DNA from: an uncultured Mucilaginibacter sp.
GTDB lineage: Bacteria > Bacteroidota > Bacteroidia > Sphingobacteriales > Sphingobacteriaceae
Reading direction: 5' to 3'
NCBI RefSeq assembly: GCF_937859865.1
Contig: NZ_CALMAT010000113.1
Coordinates: 1-37,452 of the forward strand
DNA length: 37,452 bases
The notes under the pieces are model-generated. The model was not told the origin of the DNA, searched no databases, and saw nothing but the letters and a program-made list of their open reading frames with translations. Shown here in pieces: positions 26,919-37,312 of this stretch (position 1 is the first letter of the stretch; each line of letters starts with the position of its first letter). Position numbers and translations under genes: made by a program.

Positions 26919-29387
26919 TTACTCGTAAAAATATACCCTTTTTACCCGTTGGGAAATGTTGGTGAGGATCTCGTATGGAATCGTTCCGGCTTGTTGGGCC
27001 AGCGTTTCTATCCGAAGCTGATCGTTAAAAACAATCACTTCGTCGTCCTCTTCCACCTCAATTTCGCTCACATCCAACATACACATATCCATCGAAATAT
27101 GGCCGATCGTTGGCGCCAATTTTCCGTTGATGAGCATTTTACCGTTCCCGTTGCCAAAAACGCGCAAATAACCATCGGCATAACCAATGCGAACGGTTGC
27201 AATCTGGCCGTCTTTTTCCATTTCATCGTTCCGACTGTAGCCAATTGTTTCGCCTGCTTTTACTTTTTTAAGTTGGGAAATGCTGGTTTTTAAAGCGGCA
27301 ACAGGCTGCAAAAGATTGCTTTGCTGGTCATCCGAAGTATCAATTCCGTACAAACCGATGCCAAGACGGACCATATCCAACTGCATTTCGGGAAAGCGGG
27401 AAATAGCCGAAGTATTGGCGATGTGCTTGATAAAAGCGTAACCCAAAGTTGTTTCTATTTGCCGGCAAACTTGTTGAAAAGCAGCAAATTGTTGTCGCGT
27501 AAATTCATCATGTTTTGCAGAACCGCTGGCCGCCAAATGCGAAAAAACGGATTTGACTTGCAATTGCGGGTTGTTTTTAAGCACTTGGCAAAGCTGTTCC
27601 GCTTCGTCAGTTTCAAAACCCAAACGGTGCATCCCGGTATCAATTTTTAGATGGATGGGAGAAGGAATCACTGATTTTTGACCGATAAAAGAAGCATATC
27701 GTTCTAACAAGTTAAAACTGTAAATCTCCGGTTCCAACTGGTGCTGAACCAATTCTGCAAAAGCCGTAAATCCTGGGTTTAAAACCATAATGGGCAGCGT
27801 AATTCCCGCATTTCGCAGCGCAACGCCTTCATCTACATAAGCTACGGCCAGGTAATCCACTTTGTTAAATTGCAAAATGCCTGCAATTTCAAAACTTCCG
27901 CTGCCGTACGAAAAAGCTTTTACCATCGCCATCAGTTTTACGCCCGGTTTTAAAATGGATTTGTAATGGTTGAGGTTGTTTTGAAGCGCGTTTAAATTAA
28001 TCTCCAAAACCGTTTCATGTGTTTTTTGCGATAAAATGCGGCTGATCCGTTCAAACTCAAAACTCCGCGAACCTTTTAGCAAAATGGTTTCATCTCGAAA
28101 TTGAAGCTGAGGCAATTCCTTCAACAACGATTCTGTGTTTGGAAAAAAATGTTTTTCCTGAATTTGAAAGGCTTGTTCGTTTTCTGAAATCTCCTCTCCT
28201 ACACCAATCAGCCGGTCGATTTTTTTTTGTTGAATCAAAGCGGAAACCTGTTTGTACAATTCATCGCTTTTTAAACCCGACTGGTAAATATCCGACAGAA
28301 TTAAGGTTTTCTTCGGATGCTGTTTTTGCCGCTCTAAAAAGTTTAAAGCAATCTCCAACGAGTTGATATCTGAGTTGTACGAATCATCAATAACGGAACA
28401 GTTGTGCGTACCGTTTTTCAGTTCCAGCCGCATACTTACGGCGTTTAGCGTTTCCATCCTTCGGCCCAAAACTTCGGGATTTGTGCCTAAAGCCAGTGCG
28501 GTTGCCCAGCAAAGCAGGGCGTTTTCTACCGAAGCTTCATCGGTAAATGGAATGCTGCATACCAATTTTTTGCCGGTAAAAACAGCATTGATTTGGGTTT
28601 TCCCTATAAAGGTTTCCTGTTCCAAAACAAACAAATCGGCTTGCTTTGATTTTTTGCTGATGGTAAAAGTCTTCAACCCGTTCAATTCCCGCGCGGTCTC
28701 TTCCGGCGCCTGGTCCTGATTGTAAACCAGCAGATGCACGTTTTTAAACAGCTTTAATTTCTCCTTCAGCTTCTCGTTTCGATTAATAAAACCTTCATCA
28801 TGTGCGGCGGCAAAATGTGTTAATACGCCGATGGTTGGTTTGATCATCGCTTCCAGCCGTTCCATTTCTCCAGGCAAAGAAATCCCGGCTTCAAAAATCC
28901 CCAGCTCGTTTTGCGCATCAATTTGCCAAAGCGAAAGCGGCACGCCGGTTTGCGAGTTGTAACTTTTCGGGCTTCGTACCACGTTTTTATCTAGCGAAAG
29001 CAATTGGTACAACCATTCTTTTACTACTGTTTTGCCGTTGCTTCCGGTTATCGCTATCACTTCCAAATCAAACTGGCTGCGATGAAAAGCGGCCAATTGT
29101 TGCAAGGCTGGCAATACTTCTTTTACCACTATAAAATTGGCGTTGTTTAGTTCTTGTGGAATTTGACAACCTTCCTTCACCACAAAATTGAAAACGCCGG
29201 CAGCATATAATTCGGGAATGAAACTGTGGCCGTCGCGCTTTCCATCCAAAGCAAAAAACAAAGATTTGGCGGCGTTACTGATACGGCGGCTATCAGTAAG
29301 CAAATGTTCAATCGCAACATCTTGGGCAATGCTTCTTTTAGCACCTAAAATTTCACTGATTTTTTGAATGGAATAACGACCGGGCAT
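26919..29387 (-). CDS. Bifunctional UDP-MurNAc-tripeptide:D-Ala-D-Ala ligase / alanine racemase (MurF-Alr fusion)
   Basis: This 822-residue fusion joins two steps of peptidoglycan precursor synthesis: making D-alanine and adding D-Ala-D-Ala to UDP-MurNAc-tripeptide in the cytoplasm. Residues 1-455 are MurF, with the N-terminal UDP-binding domain, the ATP loop ITGSNGKT (113-120), the central ligase domain and the C-terminal domain (VIDDSYNSD). Residues about 458-822 are alanine racemase, with the PLP-lysine K490 in MVKAFSYGSG, GIGLYGI, IGYSRND (catalytic Tyr region) and RIGYADGY. Such MurF-Alr fusions are typical for Bacteroidota. Three copies of the dispersed word are inside the gene (27686, 28577 and 29329). 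The start codon faces recX, a divergent neighbour 56 bases away. Confidence 0.95.
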   Translation of the reverse strand: MPGRYSIQKISEILGAKRSIAQDVAIEHLLTDSRRISNAAKSLFFALDGKRDGHSFIPELYAAGVFNFVVKEGCQIPQELNNANFIVVKEVLPALQQLAAFHRSQFDLEVIAITGSNGKTVVKEWLYQLLSLDKNVVRSPKSYNSQTGVPLSLWQIDAQNELGIFEAGISLPGEMERLEAMIKPTIGVLTHFAAAHDEGFINRNEKLKEKLKLFKNVHLLVYNQDQAPEETARELNGLKTFTISKKSKQADLFVLEQETFIGKTQINAVFTGKKLVCSIPFTDEASVENALLCWATALALGTNPEVLGRRMETLNAVSMRLELKNGTHNCSVIDDSYNSDINSLEIALNFLERQKQHPKKTLILSDIYQSGLKSDELYKQVSALIQQKKIDRLIGVGEEISENEQAFQIQEKHFFPNTESLLKELPQLQFRDETILLKGSRSFEFERISRILSQKTHETVLEINLNALQNNLNHYKSILKPGVKLMAMVKAFSYGSGSFEIAGILQFNKVDYLAVAYVDEGVALRNAGITLPIMVLNPGFTAFAELVQHQLEPEIYSFNLLERYASFIGQKSVIPSPIHLKIDTGMHRLGFETDEAEQLCQVLKNNPQLQVKSVFSHLAASGSAKHDEFTRQQFAAFQQVCRQIETTLGYAFIKHIANTSAISRFPEMQLDMVRLGIGLYGIDTSDDQQSNLLQPVAALKTSISQLKKVKAGETIGYSRNDEMEKDGQIATVRIGYADGYLRVFGNGNGKMLINGKLAPTIGHISMDMCMLDVSEIEVEEDDEVIVFNDQLRIETLAQQAGTIPYEILTNISQRVKRVYFYE

Positions 29388-29997: not shown

Positions 29998-30070
29998 GCG
30001 AAAGTAGCTCAGTTGGTAGAGCGCAACCTTGCCAAGGTTGAGGTCGCGAGTTCGAACCTCGTCTTTCGCT
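29998..30070 (+). tRNA. tRNA-Gly (anticodon GCC)
   Basis: This 73-base gene folds with acceptor GCGAAAG/CTTTCGC, a D-arm AGCTCAGTTGGTAGAGC, an anticodon stem CAACC/GGTTG with loop TTGCCAA giving anticodon GCC, and the T-arm GAGGT-type stem with TTCGAAC. The discriminator is T70 and CCA is not encoded. A good promoter lies just upstream and a rho-independent terminator follows. Confidence 0.96.
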
Positions 30071-30096
30071 CTTAGCCTCACAAGCCTCACCCTAAA

Positions 30097-30165: not shown

Positions 30166-30250
30166 GCTCGGGTGGTGGAACTGGTAGACACGCAGGACTT
30201 AAAATCCTGTTCCCGTTAAAGGAGTGCGGGTTCGATTCCCGCCCCGAGTA
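30166..30250 (+). tRNA. tRNA-Leu (anticodon UAA)
   Basis: The 85-base gene has acceptor GCTCGGG/CCCGAGT (one G-U pair), D-arm GTGGAACTGGTAGACAC, anticodon stem CAGGA/TCCTG with loop CTTAAAA (anticodon TAA), a long variable arm (TTCCCGTTAAAGGAGT) typical of type II tRNAs, and a T-arm GCGGG/CCCGC. The 3' 43 bases are repeated exactly at 30355-30397. A terminator directly follows. Confidence 0.96.
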
Positions 30251-30251
30251 C
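30209..30251 (+). repeat. 43-bp direct repeat, left copy (tRNA-Leu 3' end, attachment-site candidate)
   Basis: The 3' half of tRNA-Leu from the end of the anticodon stem to one base past the gene is identical to 30355-30397, 146 bases away. Integrative elements often duplicate the 3' end of their target tRNA, so this is one of two candidate att copies. Confidence 0.75.
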
Positions 30252-30309: not shown

Positions 30310-30397
30310 AGCATCAACGCCAGAACTGGCAGGCACGCCCCGATTAAGATCGGGGTTCCCGTTAAAGGAGTGCGGGTTCGATTCCCGCCCCGAGTAC
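30310..30397 (+). pseudogene. Degenerate tRNA-Leu copy with 43-bp identical 3' end (attachment-site candidate)
   Basis: This stretch lines up with the whole tRNA-Leu. The acceptor 5' strand is lost, the D-arm is recognisable but altered (AGAACTGGCAGGCACGC), and the 17-base anticodon arm is replaced by the 18-base hairpin CCCCGATTAAGATCGGGG. From 30355 on it is identical to the real tRNA. Without a 5' acceptor strand it cannot make a normal cloverleaf. It also holds the stop codon of the recombinase gene on the other strand. Confidence 0.75.
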
Positions 30398-31936
30398 TGC
30401 ACGGGAAAGACGCAATGAATCACGTTCTTTCCCGTTTTTTTTTGGCTTTAACATGCTGTTAATCTGAAATATAAGAAGTGCTGCTTCATTCATTCGCTGG
30501 GTTCGATATTCGTTCCCGTCAAATCTCATTTTTTCACGGTATATCGAACCCAGTATTGCCCTTTTAGTTAAAACGTCTCCCTCTCCATACAATGTTTCGA
30601 GTCTTGAAAGTACCTCAATTGCTTTTAAAACCATATTATCTACACTGATAGTGTTAGATTTTAGTACCCTCGCCTCTGAAAGCATATCTTCAAGCCTTTT
30701 TATTTTTTGCTCACAATCTTTTTTCATTATTGCATAATCATCCGCCTCTAGTTTTCCGTCAAAAAGTAGGTCCCTTGCGTTCGCTAATTTAATCTTGAGC
30801 TTTGCAATTTGTTCTGCTATTTCACGCCTTTGGTCAACAGTATTTCCTTTATGAGTTTTATAAATGTCAAGTACAACTGTTTTGTATAATTCAGACATGC
30901 CTGGCAAGGGTACAAATTTTAAAAGTTCTTCTTGAACAGCTTTATTGACATGATCTGCCTTATATCGACAACCGCACCCATAAATTGATTGAGCGTGATA
31001 ATAATAGTAATAACCTCCTTTTTTCCCTTTTGATGCACTTCCTGTAAGTTGTTTATTACAAGTTGCGCATTCCAAAAAGCTTTGTAGCGGTAAGCCTTCA
31101 TTGATTTTTACAGCATTTAAACGCATTGCTTTTGTACGACCATTCAATATATCCTGCACTTTATGAAATAAAGTCTCTTTAATTAATGGCTCATGTAAGC
31201 CATTTACCCATTGTTCTTCTTCATCTTTAAAAGCCTTTACGACTATCTTTCCACAGTAGACGGGGTTTCTAATCTCACGATAGAAATTCATTCGGCTTAT
31301 CATAAATCCTCTGTCGTTAGCCATCTTTCTAATTTGATCAGGCGCAAATACTCCTTCAGCAATAGTTTCAAATATCCATTTCATCTGCGGCGCTTCTATT
31401 GGATTAAACGCAATATATTTACTACCATCTTCTCTTGTTTTATTATCATATCCTATTGGGGCAACGCCCATATATCTGCCCTCTTTTCTCGCCCGCCGCA
31501 TTCCTTGTTTTACGTTTAAAGCTCGTCGGTCATTTTCTACCTCCGGTGCAGCTAAATAAAATGCCAACATAATTTTGTTTTCCGGGATTTCTAAATTAAG
31601 AGGTTGTTCGACTGCCTGGGGTTCAATTCCCAATCTCGTTAATGTAGAAATCATTTGATAAGCATCTCCTGCATTACGGCTAAACCTATCCCACTTTGTA
31701 AAAAGAACTAAGTCAGCACCCCTTCCTTTATTCTTACGAATCTCAGTCAAATACTTATTCCACTCCGGACGATTAAAGGTTTTTGCAGAATGATCTTCAA
31801 ATAATACCTTTCGTACTTTCATACCATTAATTTCACAATATTTCTGTAACTGCTCATTCTGGTCTCTTTGAGAATAACCTTTGTCTGCCTGCTCGTCTGT
31901 TGATACCCTAATGTATAAATCTGCAATTTTCATCAT
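30362..31936 (-). CDS. Large serine recombinase (resolvase/invertase-type integrase)
   Basis: This 524-residue site-specific recombinase is probably the integrase of the element. The N-terminal resolvase domain has the catalytic serine in LYIRVSTDEQ (S12) and the conserved LVLFTKWDRFSRNAGDAY helix. A recombinase domain follows from about 155 to 260 (GVAPIGYDN and FYREIRNPVYCGKI), then a zinc ribbon beginning CATC near 295 with a partner CGC, and a C-terminal coiled coil (about 370-440). The last residues (AVLGAGIEPALL) are read from the complement of the duplicated tRNA-Leu 3' end, which also supplies the stop. Start at 31936, with an alternative ATG at 31933. The small gene upstream ends nine bases before it. 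Confidence 0.92.
   Translation of the reverse strand: MMKIADLYIRVSTDEQADKGYSQRDQNEQLQKYCEINGMKVRKVLFEDHSAKTFNRPEWNKYLTEIRKNKGRGADLVLFTKWDRFSRNAGDAYQMISTLTRLGIEPQAVEQPLNLEIPENKIMLAFYLAAPEVENDRRALNVKQGMRRARKEGRYMGVAPIGYDNKTREDGSKYIAFNPIEAPQMKWIFETIAEGVFAPDQIRKMANDRGFMISRMNFYREIRNPVYCGKIVVKAFKDEEEQWVNGLHEPLIKETLFHKVQDILNGRTKAMRLNAVKINEGLPLQSFLECATCNKQLTGSASKGKKGGYYYYYHAQSIYGCGCRYKADHVNKAVQEELLKFVPLPGMSELYKTVVLDIYKTHKGNTVDQRREIAEQIAKLKIKLANARDLLFDGKLEADDYAIMKKDCEQKIKRLEDMLSEARVLKSNTISVDNMVLKAIEVLSRLETLYGEGDVLTKRAILGSIYREKMRFDGNEYRTQRMNEAALLIFQINSMLKPKKNGKERDSLRLSRAVLGAGIEPALL
30401..30443 (+). terminator. Strong plus-strand terminator inside the recombinase 3' end
   Basis: ACGGGAAAGA (30401-30410) pairs perfectly with TCTTTCCCGT (30426-30435), followed by nine T. 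It terminates transcripts coming rightward out of the tRNA-Leu copy. It overlaps the last codons of the minus-strand recombinase gene. Confidence 0.8.
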
Positions 31937-32554: not shown

Positions 32555-32634
32555 GGCAAGATGTACTTTTGTCCACACAAAAGGCCTTGCCCTCCTTTCA
32601 GTCCGTAGGTGACCGCTGCGGAACTTGCGGTCAC
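32555..32634 (+). other. Candidate origin of transfer (oriT) with two hairpins
   Basis: Hairpin one: GGCAAG (32555-32560) with CTTGCC (32586-32591), enclosing CTTTTGT/ACAAAAG (32566-32572, 32577-32583) around CCAC. Hairpin two: GTGACCGC (32609-32616) with GCGGTCAC (32627-32634), ten-base loop. They lie directly upstream of the mobC-like gene and relaxase, where oriT sits in most MOBP-type elements. A nic site cannot be fixed by eye. Confidence 0.5.
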
Positions 32635-32656
32635 TAGTTTTTATCATGTACTTATT

Positions 32657-33064
32657 ATGGGCAGGACAAAATATAAAGCCCGGGAAGAATTACTGAACTT
32701 CCCGGTAAGGACCAGGGTAACTGAAGTTACTTATAAACGACTGGAAAAACTGGTAGCGGAAAGCAACTGCCAGTCTGTAGGCGAAGTAGCCAGAAAGATA
32801 TTGTCCCGTGAAAAGATACTTTGCTTTTATAAGGACATTACGATGAACGCGCCGATGGAAGAACTGGCAAGTATCCGAAAAGAACTGAAATCCATAGGCA
32901 TCAATATCAACCAGCTCACCAAAGGGTATAACAGTGCAAAGGAAGAAGCCCATAGAGCTTTTTATATCTTAAAAGTATTGGAGCAGTATAAACCGGTCGA
33001 AGCAAAAGTGGACAGGCTGCTTTTATTAGTATCAGCGTTAGCCGAAAAATGGTTGCAAAAATAG
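32657..33064 (+). CDS. Mobilization accessory protein (MobC-like)
   Basis: This encodes a 135-residue oriT-binding accessory protein from the MobC/BmgB type. The frame can be read from a GTG at 32609, but that start lies inside the candidate oriT hairpin; the ATG at 32657 (MGRTKYKAREELLNFPVRTR) is preferred. The first part looks like a ribbon-helix-helix DNA-binding fold (TRVTEVTYKRLEKLVAESNC, then SVGEVARKILSREKI). The second part matches the MobC pattern (LASIRKELKSIGININQLTK). Such proteins open the oriT and recruit the relaxase. The last 16 bases overlap the relaxase start in another frame, which indicates translational coupling. Confidence 0.85.
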   Translation: MGRTKYKAREELLNFPVRTRVTEVTYKRLEKLVAESNCQSVGEVARKILSREKILCFYKDITMNAPMEELASIRKELKSIGININQLTKGYNSAKEEAHRAFYILKVLEQYKPVEAKVDRLLLLVSALAEKWLQK

Positions 33065-34361
33065 TCAGCGGTAAAAGTATAAGAGGCCTGCTCAACTATA
33101 ACGAAAGTAAAGTGAAGGCAGGTAAGGCAGAACTGATTATGGTCAGTAGGTTTGCAGGGGAAACCAGTCAATTAGGGTTTAACCAAAAGCTTCAGCGCTT
33201 TGAACATCTTACTGATTTGAATAGTCATGTAAAAACCAATTCGGTTCATATTATGCTCAACTTTGATTTCATGGAGCAGCCCGATTATTTCAAGCTGCAA
33301 CAAATTGCTGCTTCATATATGGAAAAGATCGGTTTCGGTGAGCAGCCTTATTTGGTTTACAAACATGAGGATGCAGCTCATCCCCATATCCATATCGTTA
33401 CGACTAATATCCAGGAAGACGGGTCGAGGATCAACCTGCACGACATAGGAAAAAGACTTTCTGAACCGGCAAGAAAAGAACTGGAAAAGGAATTTGGCCT
33501 GATTAAAGCCGAAGGAAAGGAACTGAAAGATGCCATAGCCATAAAAGCGGTTAACATAGAAAAAGCAGAATATGGGAAAACGCCTACCAAGCGTGCTATC
33601 ACCAATGTCGTTACTGCTGTTACCCGGGATTATAAATATACCTCCCTTGCTGAAATGAATGCCATACTCAAACAATTTAATGTTATAGCAGACCGAGGCA
33701 AAGAGGATACCCAAATGTTCCAAAAGAAAGGTTTGATCTATTCGATTATCGATGAAAAGGGTAACAAGATGGGTATCCCTTTCAAGGCAAGCAGTTTGAA
33801 TGGTAAACCGACGCTTCCTAACCTCGAAAGCAAGTTCATACAAAACGAAGAAAAGCGAAAACCTTACAAGGAAGACCTAAAAGCCAGCATTGATAAAGTT
33901 TTTACTGCTTATCAGCAAATTACCAAGGAGACTTTTGTAAAAGAACTGGCTAACCTAAATATCAATGCTCTTTTTCGTCAAAACGAACAAGGCCTTACCT
34001 ACGGGGTAACTTTCGTCGACAACAAAAACAAAACAGTTTTTAATGGCAGTGACCTGGGCAAAGCCTATAGTGCCAAAGCGATCAGCGAAAGGTTTAGCAA
34101 TCAGGATAAGCCTGTTCACCAACCGCAGCAAACCAGCAAACCACTGCATCTTATCTTAAGCTTAAACAACAGACCAGTTATCTGAAAACACAAAAAGAAA
34201 CGGACTACTTGAAAACGGCTCAAAAGGAACAGGAAAAAACCTACCTGAAGCCAAGCTTACCGGAAAGGTTACTGGAAAACCTGCTGGGCAAAACAGACGA
34301 GGACAGCTTACCTACCATTCCCGAGGATAAAAAGAAGAAGAAAAGGGAACTGCATTTATAA
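33049..34361 (+). CDS. MOBP-type relaxase (MobB/VirD2-like), C-terminal tail out of frame
   Basis: This relaxase nicks DNA at oriT and pilots the strand to the recipient. The relaxase domain has the motif I region GLLNYNESKV (probable catalytic Y17), motif II NSVHIMLNFDF, and the metal-binding motif III HEDAAHPHIHIV (H106, H111, H113, H115). The continuous frame ends at 34185 after 378 residues with an unlikely tail (LILSLNNRPVI). In the -1 frame a plausible natural ending continues, TTASYLKLKQQTSYLKT onward through PERLLENLLGKT and KKKKKREL to a TAA at 34361; that frame is closed upstream at 34109. One missing base between about 34,110 and 34,180 explains this. The truncated protein may still nick. 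Confidence 0.85.
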
Positions 34362-34386
34362 ATCATCATAAAATAAAAGCGACATC

Positions 34387-34476
34387 ATGCAAACAGGAGA
34401 AGCCCTGCAAGGGCTTAGAAAAATCATTGATTTTACCAGGCTGATCAGCCTGTTTATTTTAGCAGTGCATTTTTGA
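34387..34476 (+). pseudogene. N-terminal stub of a conjugative coupling protein (TraG/MobC-type T4CP)
   Basis: A 29-codon frame begins MQTGEALQGLRKIIDFTRLI and ends SLFILAVHF, then TGA. This matches the N-terminal segment by which Bacteroidota type IV coupling proteins begin, a short cytoplasmic helix leading into the first membrane helix. The rest, normally more than 600 residues with Walker motifs, is missing; the next 600 bases contain no related sequence. It follows the relaxase by 25 bases, which is the expected place of this gene. An internal deletion has apparently removed nearly the whole coupling protein. Confidence 0.55.
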
Positions 34477-34510
34477 GCAAAGCCCGTAAAACCAGTAAAC
34501 CTGTTTGAAC

Positions 34511-34546
34511 CAAAGGCGTGGATTTAATTATCCAGGCCTTTTTTAG
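34511..34546 (+). terminator. Terminator-like hairpin
   Basis: AAGGC and GGAT pair with ATCC and GCCTT around an AT-rich loop, followed by a T-run (CCTTTTTTAG). Pairing is imperfect. It would end transcripts from the mobilization operon just after the coupling-protein stub. Confidence 0.5.
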
Positions 34547-34559
34547 TTATATAATCGAA

Positions 34560-35030
34560 AGAATTTTTTATAAGTGAAATTTAACCACATAAGGGCAAAA
34601 GCCATTTCCTGCATTCCGCACAGCTCCATTCCGTAAACCGCTTCCCGCTTTGGTAGCTGAAAAGCGTAAGGCTCCTTCGTCGCCACACGCATTTAATCCG
34701 CTTTTCTAATCACCTTCTTAAGCAGAAATACTACTAGCAATAACGTCTGGTAATGTGCTTTTTCAGTAGCCACTGGCCTTTTATATACAGCAAATTTCCG
34801 ATGAGCAGGGACACATGAGCAAGGTCGGGCCCTACGGGTTTTGAAAAAATAATCTTCCTCTCCTTTTTTCAGTGGTGCCCTTCGGGCGGGTTGTCCCGGA
34901 GAGCGTATTTTTTTTCCAAAAACCTTGCCCATGTGCCCTGCCTAATCAGGTGCGCTGCTTAATAAAAAGCCAGCGAGCCTATGCGAGCGGACTTAAAAAC
35001 AAAGCATCAAAAACAAAAAAGCACCGAACC
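34560..35030. other. Non-coding region holding a large imperfect hairpin (34806-34940)
   Basis: No credible gene is found here; the frames on both strands lack any familiar pattern. The main structure is a 135-base imperfect hairpin. CAGGG, CACATG and GCAAGG (34806-34824) pair with CCTTGC, CATGTG and CCCTG (34923-34940) with one bulge and one mismatch. The stem continues as TTTTGAAAAAATA (34839-34851) against the T- and A-runs at 34907-34921. The inner loop holds GCCCTTCGGGC (34878-34888). It could be a structured RNA, a leader of the downstream gene cluster or a replication or termination site. Confidence 0.55.
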
Positions 35031-35150
35031 ATGAAACTACCAAAAAGCAGGGCACCACCAACTGGAAAGCGGATTACGACCACAGACCGATCGATCACAA
35101 AAAGCAAAACCAATTACGATTCAAAAATCAAATTCATTTTAAAAACATAA
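35031..35150 (+). CDS. Possible small basic peptide
   Basis: An ATG at 35031 opens 39 codons (MKLPKSRAPPTGKRITTTDR, then SITKSKTNYDSKIKFILKT). The product would be Lys/Ser/Thr-rich, basic and disordered. It ends five bases before the start of the next gene, in the same direction, which is the only support. I do not recognise it and it may be just leader sequence of the next gene. Confidence 0.3.
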   Translation: MKLPKSRAPPTGKRITTTDRSITKSKTNYDSKIKFILKT

Positions 35151-35155
35151 AACCC

Positions 35156-36251: not shown

Positions 36252-37312
36252 ATGGCACATAATCTAAATTATAACCAGCAGAAAGGCAAGCACAGCTTCT
36301 TTTCCGTTAAAGGAAAAGCATGGCACGGGTTAGGACAAATTATCAGCGATTACCCGACAAGCGAGAAAGCGATCATACATGCAGGGTTAGACTACCAGGT
36401 AGAAAAAGACCTTTGTTTACCTACGATGCAAACAATAACTTTTGGGACAATAGCGAGGCAATATCGGATATCGAACTATCAAACCATTTTGCAACCGTCC
36501 GGGCAGACACAGACCAGGTTTTAGGCGTAGTAGGCAATGATTACGAGATCGTACAGAACATAAACGCTTTTTCGTTTTTTGACGAAATTGTCGCCAGCAG
36601 AAAGGATATTTTATATGAAACGGCAGGCGCATTAGGCAAAGGTGAGCGTATTTTTATTACGGCGAAACTGCCTGATTATATAAAAGTCGGTAGGGATGAC
36701 TTGATTGAGCAGTATTTATTCCTGACTACTTCCCATGACGGTTCGGGCAGTATCACTATCGCTTTTACGCCTGTTCGGATCGTTTGCCAGAACACCTTAA
36801 ATGCAGCCTTAAAAAATAGCAGCAACAGCATCAGGATACGTCATACGGCAAGTGCAGCAGAAAAGCTGAAAGGTGCACAACAAATACTGGGTAGGTCGAT
36901 GCAGTTATCGGTAGAACTGGAAGCAGTGTTTAACCACTGGGCAAGGGTCAAAATCACAGACCGCGAAGTAAAAAGGCTGATCGAACTCGCAATGGCACCA
37001 GGCAAAGAAGTACCGCAAAAGCCTAAAAGCGAAAAGCAAGAGGAATATTCCTCCATATTTAACAATACGGTTAGTTCTGTAATGGAATACGCTTTAACAA
37101 GCCCGACACAACAGGAAGTAACTACCAAAGGCACTTTGTTTGGTGCTTATAATGCCGTTACCGGCTATTTTCAGAATGTCAAGAATTATAAGGACGGGGA
37201 AGCTAAGTTTAAATCCATCATGTACGGCGCAGGAATGCAGAAATCACAGACTGCTTTTGATCTGTGTGCTGATTTTGCAAAACATGGAAGTAGTTTTTTG
37301 AGGCTAAACTAA
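36252..37312 (+). pseudogene. DUF932 (phage/plasmid-like TIGR03299-type) gene with a one-base deletion
   Basis: The first frame (from ATG 36252) reads MAHNLNYNQQKGKHSFFSVK, then GKAWHGLGQIISDYP and GLDYQVEKD, the typical start of DUF932 proteins. It breaks down after the A-run at 36403-36407. From there the -1 frame reads RPLFTYDANNNFWDNSE and continues without interruption to the stop at 37312, with GVVGNDYEIVQN, ALGKGERIFITAKLP, LFLTTSHDGSGSITIAFTP and KGTLFGAYNAVTGYFQN. Adding one A gives EKRPLFTYD, the family sequence, and a full-length protein of about 354 residues. DUF932 proteins are common on plasmids and integrative elements; their role is not known. As it stands the gene is split in two. 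Confidence 0.85.

Follow-up and report, generated by a model that had tools for sequence, protein, structure and literature searches.

A Predicted Single-Stranded DNA Promoter Upstream of a DUF932 Operon in a Mucilaginibacter Mobilizable Element

The contig analyzed here (37,452 nucleotides, hereafter the window) carries, between a relaxase gene and a DUF932 operon, an extended hairpin of about 200 bases. By analogy with known systems, this element is probably a single-stranded DNA (ssDNA) promoter of an integrative mobilizable element, i.e., a Bacteroidota counterpart of the Frpo promoter of the F plasmid. The hairpin structure, the covariation of its pairs, its sigma boxes, the bubble that exposes one of them, its orientation, and the types of genes that follow it were all established by computation, as described below.

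Genomic Context of the Element

The features of the region are listed in Table 1. The predicted operon consists of a 187-aa protein, a small protein, and DUF932, in this order, and all three genes are co-oriented on the plus strand. The window spans the entire contig and stops shortly past the DUF932 gene, so the remainder of the operon is out of view. The label “PRTRC system protein E”, considered for the 187-aa protein, was dropped, as there was no NCBIfam match.

The initial annotation placed the element in a 470-base stretch without a gene. That length understates the gap or covers a part of it: the region from the relaxase gene to the next sizeable gene extends over 34186–35155 and is interrupted only by the 39-codon open reading frame (ORF). 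The proposal of a structured regulatory element ahead of the DUF932 cluster is borne out. A serine recombinase gene (30362–31936) is also present in the window, which points to an integrative mobilizable element. The genes for tRNA-Gly (29998–30071) and tRNA-Leu (30166–30251) adjoin this large serine recombinase gene, a possible boundary of the mobile element. Farther upstream, 26919–29387 encodes a Mur ligase and an alanine racemase fused into one 822-aa protein.

Table 1. Features of the predicted promoter and of the flanking genes (window positions)
Feature	Position	Strand	Remarks
MobC-like accessory protein	32609..33064	+	PF19514/PF05713, weak matches under curated cut-offs
MobA-type relaxase	33049..34185	+	PF03432
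Whole extended hairpin	34773..34973	-	73 pairs in the DNA fold of 34773-34976; outer stem common to homologues
Outer stem, 3' arm of folded minus strand (downstream duplex of predicted promoter)	34773..34784	-	Pairs with 34962-34973
-7 box GAAATTTG	34791..34798	-	5/6 against TAnnTTTG; -11 to -6 (34797-34792) unpaired, -12 and -5 paired
21-base spacer, TTG to -7 box	34799..34819	-	Sequence differs among homologues, pairing is kept
-33 element CTTG, within stem	34820..34823	-	Helix 4, 95.5% of alignment cells paired
Small side hairpin off 3' arm, just upstream of -33 element	34826..34838	-	Helix 8 of covariation alignment; DNA fold
A/T-rich inner stem	34839..34853	-	Pairs with 34907-34921
Template side of bubble and start region	34946..34961	-	Inferred from fold and published sigma-box numbering
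Outer stem, 5' arm of folded minus strand (template side)	34962..34973	-	Pairs with 34773-34784
39-codon upstream ORF, MKLPKSRAPPTGK..., RAPP motif	35031..35150	+	5 bases from stop to next ATG
First sizeable downstream gene, 187 aa	35156..35719	+	No Pfam or NCBIfam match
DUF932/TIGR03299 phage/plasmid-like protein	36320..37312	+	Profile match

Structure of the Hairpin

The inner arms within 34806–34940 pair as first noted, forming an imperfect stem. With RNA parameters, this segment folds with −53.2 kcal/mol on the plus strand (z −4.2) and −60.8 kcal/mol on the minus strand (z −5.8), values that none of 200 dinucleotide shuffles equaled on either strand; DNA parameters gave a z of −4.4 for the plus strand. 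The hairpin is real and well beyond chance on both strands, and it is even longer than initially described: 34806–34940 is only the inner portion of the extended structure (34773–34973), in which an internal loop lies between the inner part and the outer stem. Folded as DNA, the minus strand of 34773–34976 reached −45.4 kcal/mol, compared with a mean of −23.0 kcal/mol (sd 3.3) for 100 single-base shuffles.

The minus strand is predicted to be the one that folds, i.e., the transferred strand. On its non-template arm, position +1 (34786) falls within the internal loop opposite 34959–34961, and the 5′ end of the RNA is predicted from this model at about 34960, reading rightwards. The A/T-rich inner stem (34839–34853) could be a UP-like element. 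The side hairpin (34826–34838) is conserved and is of the CGGGCCCTACGGG type.

Covariation and Distribution of Relatives

A blastn search of 399 genomes of the family retrieved about 10 clear relatives, along with many short matches to the core; the count of 371/399 genomes is meaningless, owing to the E-value limit of 1. The relatives reach the outer stem, and most retain an unpaired AAATTT-like loop. In the same genome, there was no further copy at a blastn E-value of 0.001, and one second match was counted at E-values up to 1. RNAalifold gave a weak consensus of 27 pairs on the first MAFFT alignment because the arms were gapped; the alignment was therefore rebuilt on trimmed elements.

A covariance model built from 21 relatives in the minus-strand sense matched 30 of the 395 genomes sampled across the phylum, these 30 carrying seven family labels within one class, and 135 of 300 genomes in the order. 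Among the named hosts are Mucilaginibacter, Pedobacter, Daejeonella, Sphingobacterium, Olivibacter, and Nubsella. Covariation among homologues had been put forward as a check on the structure, and the element passed it: 42 of the 49 pairs change on both sides, and neither any of 500 shuffles nor any slid register came near this number. Standard pairs occupy 89% of 2749 cells (63 matches, 62 distinct). The alignment was fitted to the covariance model, which favours structure, but the MAFFT alignment had shown these pairs beforehand.

In one genome (G102), four copies of the element with equal scores are found in different places. Four elements (L056, L071, L073, and L077) constitute a sub-type for which the covariance model matches the core only.

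Sigma Boxes and Position of the Bubble

For the primary sigma factor of Bacteroidota, TAnnTTTG at −12 to −5 and TTTG near −33 have been described (PMC7366714, PMC9723704), and the −12 to −5 numbering used here is taken from PMC9723704. In the folded minus strand, a TTG on the 3′ arm is followed after 17–23 bases (mode 21) by TAnnTTTG, with a match of at least 5/6 in 48 of the 59 elements used (out of 61) and a perfect match in 18. The mirror arm of these elements contains such a box in 0/59 cases, and base-shuffled arms do so in 6.7%. Among the 48 box-bearing elements, the A is fixed in all 48, the TTT is almost fixed, and both n positions are variable. Distant relatives have TAACTTTG, TATCTTTG, TACCTTTG, TAGCTTTG, or TAATTTTG, i.e., the n positions drift and the others are kept. 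The window box (34798–34791) has a G for a T and lies 21 bases from TTG. A box of at least 5/6 is absent from 11/59 elements, in some of them because the covariance model matched the core only. In L056, L073, and L077, a TAnnTTTG box is located farther out, past a longer spacer arm.

The bubble profile was calculated for 41 of the 54 non-redundant elements, namely those whose box scores 5/6 or better. The mean unpaired probability was 0.38 at −12, 0.75 at −11, 0.55 at −7, and 0.13 at −5. RNA polymerase starts melting DNA at −11. In the modeled folds, the bubble opens where the polymerase begins melting, at about −11, and the spacer and the downstream DNA are paired. Among the window's relatives, the template-arm spacer is near-constant (18) and the box-arm spacer ranges from 16 to 20, a pattern that the proposed model does not predict.

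Nucleic Acid, Strand, and Gene Direction

An RNA is expected to keep G.U on its own strand far above A.C. In 54 elements left after removal of near-duplicates, with the arms aligned by a strand-symmetric score, 176 G.T and 146 A.C were counted (P 0.11), and these near-symmetric wobble counts favour DNA over RNA. Rfam 15 gave no match at gathering thresholds and none that was credible at relaxed thresholds. The initial annotation had listed a structured RNA among its candidates; these two results, together with the location of a −7 box in the loop when the minus strand is folded, point to DNA instead. Since the asymmetry between G.T and A.C is not significant, the strand was chosen from the boxes, the gene direction, and the DNA folding energy. 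The minus strand has the lower energy in 47/54 elements and also in 24/29 elements of a set found without the covariance model.

Counting genes of 90 codons or more, the next one runs in the predicted direction of firing in 55/61 elements and against it in 6/61. Neighbours on the other side show no strand preference (27 plus, 30 minus, 4 none). This count includes 61 of the 63 matches, near-identical loci being kept and two short or antisense matches omitted. The next gene is likewise co-oriented in 25/29 loci from the phylum search (L053–L081). At 17 of the 20 named loci encoding the 187-aa protein, the element is located upstream on the predicted strand. When 31 first genes, with most of the 187-aa family left out, were compared with Pfam, SSB was found in 11, DUF6943 in 8, ArdC in 1, and RadC in 1. 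DUF6943 is the first gene at L053–L056, L060, L068, L075, and L024 (8/31, at loci picked by reading sequences) and is a candidate establishment or anti-defence protein. Nearby genes also encode DnaJ-like and DUF6908 proteins, and one nearby protein was labeled as putatively ParB-like from its sequence. In conjugative relatives, TraK and TraM are found upstream of the element.

Of 23 element–relaxase pairs sharing a contig, four were more than 60 kb apart, one of them on opposite strands, and were not counted. In 18 of the other 19 cases, the operon and the nearest relaxase within 60 kb share a strand, as in layouts with the relaxase in the lagging region (PMC11541004); the exception is G738. 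It is this strand of the relaxase gene that suggests the minus strand as the transferred one. Outside the window, the nearest relaxase within 60 kb lies 10 to 51 kb from the element.

Comparison with Frpo and Single-Strand Origins

In F, Frpo is described as an ssDNA fold that rebuilds the −35 and −10 boxes; it precedes ssb and further leading genes, whose early expression requires it (PMC9849209). The present element resembles Frpo/ssi of F, ColIb-P9, and related plasmids, in which promoter boxes are reportedly rebuilt by an ssDNA stem-loop that lies upstream of ssb and of other leading genes readable from the T-strand (PMC9849209, PMC11541004). As in those promoters, we found a stable stem-loop under evolutionary constraint on one strand, primary-sigma boxes rebuilt in the fold (here of the Bacteroidota type), and a placement directly upstream of leading-type genes in the direction of firing. 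F has two copies, Frpo1 and Frpo2, about 5 kb apart (PMC9849209); paired copies in one orientation, 5–7 kb apart, are likewise seen here (G742:C29, 4477 and 9352; G418:C4, 12528 and 19210; G319:C1, 159781 and 165196). In the annotated leading region of F, almost all genes are on the tra strand, and SSB, ParB-like, and DUF932 genes occur there too.

There are also differences. The element DNA has no blastn match in a plasmid collection that includes F, and thus no sequence similarity to Frpo was detected. In the same collection, neither the 187-aa protein nor the DUF6943 protein has a match, and SSB has only distant ones. Frpo carries TTGACA/TATAAT boxes, whereas the boxes here are the −33/−7 boxes of Bacteroidota. 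In the region upstream of F ssb, −35/−10 boxes could not be placed, the best score being 8/12 on both strands. The carriers also differ, being conjugative and mobilizable elements of Bacteroidota. Frpo-like sequences have been reported in thousands of conjugative elements (PMC11541004), in a paper whose main text does not contain the word “Bacteroid”. Among the open-licence papers listed, none was found on Frpo-type ssDNA promoters in Bacteroides or Bacteroidota.

The element is also comparable to the single-strand origins (sso) of ICEBs1 and rolling-circle plasmids. At an sso, RNA polymerase works on a folded single strand, as it would here. Unlike in those origins, gene placement and orientation point towards expression.

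Alternative Explanations

An identical anatomy would suffice for a single-strand origin (sso/ssi), at which RNA polymerase would use the fold mainly to make a primer for the second strand rather than to express genes. ICEBs1, which possesses an sso, offers a precedent (PMC4595007), and a paper by Masai and Arai on F unites, in its title, the roles of promoter and of primer at a strand-replication origin. A pure origin, however, requires no downstream gene, and the location of the element directly before co-oriented genes, many of them SSB, is a better fit to expression; an origin without a role in expression is thus unlikely. A structured RNA transcribed from double-stranded DNA, be it a leader, a riboswitch-like element, or a small RNA, is still less probable. 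Although the strong covariation and the good RNA fold of either strand would suit it, G.T pairs are about as frequent as A.C pairs, where RNA should favour G.U, Rfam contains no match, and transcription from the conserved boxes of the minus strand would begin outside the conserved hairpin core, where the predicted start site lies. Such an RNA would also leave the conserved sigma box in the loop unexplained.

In duplex DNA, the minus-strand boxes read leftwards, as they would in an ordinary double-stranded promoter whose inverted repeat arose by chance or binds a protein. We consider this very improbable: genes on that side lie on either strand without preference, the spacer covaries so that its pairing persists, and the bubble is aligned with −11. 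The proximity to a relaxase gene, from which the window element is only 0.6 kb away, would be expected of an origin of transfer (oriT), but elsewhere the nearest relaxase within 60 kb is mostly 10–51 kb off and copies are paired within 5–7 kb, so an oriT is hardly conceivable.

Proposed Mechanism

If the element is an ssDNA promoter, the minus strand would enter the recipient as ssDNA during transfer and fold into the hairpin, which would restore the −33 element and the spacer as a duplex and leave the −7 box unpaired from about −11. Because this box would already be open, host RNA polymerase with the primary sigma could bind and start without melting. The non-template strand would be the 3′ arm of the minus strand; hence, the RNA would be copied from the 5′ arm and run over the plus-strand genes. 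The polymerase would exit the base of the hairpin near 34960, follow the minus strand, and make plus-sense mRNA of the operon, so that entry genes could be read before a second strand exists; the same RNA might additionally prime second-strand synthesis. This synthesis would abolish the hairpin and leave boxes that face leftwards, away from the operon, and expression would thus be early and brief. Here, we infer the transfer of the minus strand, the transcription itself, and its timing.

Upstream ORF

A short ORF that starts 54–78 bases past the modeled hairpin and has an early [RK]xPP motif occurs in 19/61 elements, all of them of the window's family, compared with 0.35 expected by shuffling (near-identical loci kept). 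The variants are RAPP, RSPP, RGPP, RDPP, and KAPP. Since the codons vary at third positions, the peptide appears to be conserved. RAPP and RGPP are reported to support ribosome arrest, and RDPP and RSPP to be present in arrest-permissive mutants (PMC12992588); KAPP does not occur in that source. The ORF directly precedes the first operon gene, and the motif near its start resembles ribosome-arrest motifs; arrest so close to the N-terminus is putative. A broader model, in which ssDNA promoters with primary sigma and a pre-opened −7 box are class-wide in Bacteroidota and, in the window's family, an early short ORF with an R[A/G/S/D]PP or KAPP stalling motif in its first dozen residues acts as a translational switch that tunes the leading operon, is advanced only tentatively and, as a whole, is rather doubtful.

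Implications

On gene expression of Bacteroidota conjugative elements upon the arrival of ssDNA, we found nothing in print among the open-licence papers listed. If the proposed ssDNA promoter is correct, such promoters exist under a different sigma consensus, and the transferred strand would be legible from sequence. The hairpin would flag entry operons in a large share of genomes (135/300 of the order) and would serve as a search tool for new anti-defence or establishment genes, e.g., DUF6943, the first gene in 8/31 cases.
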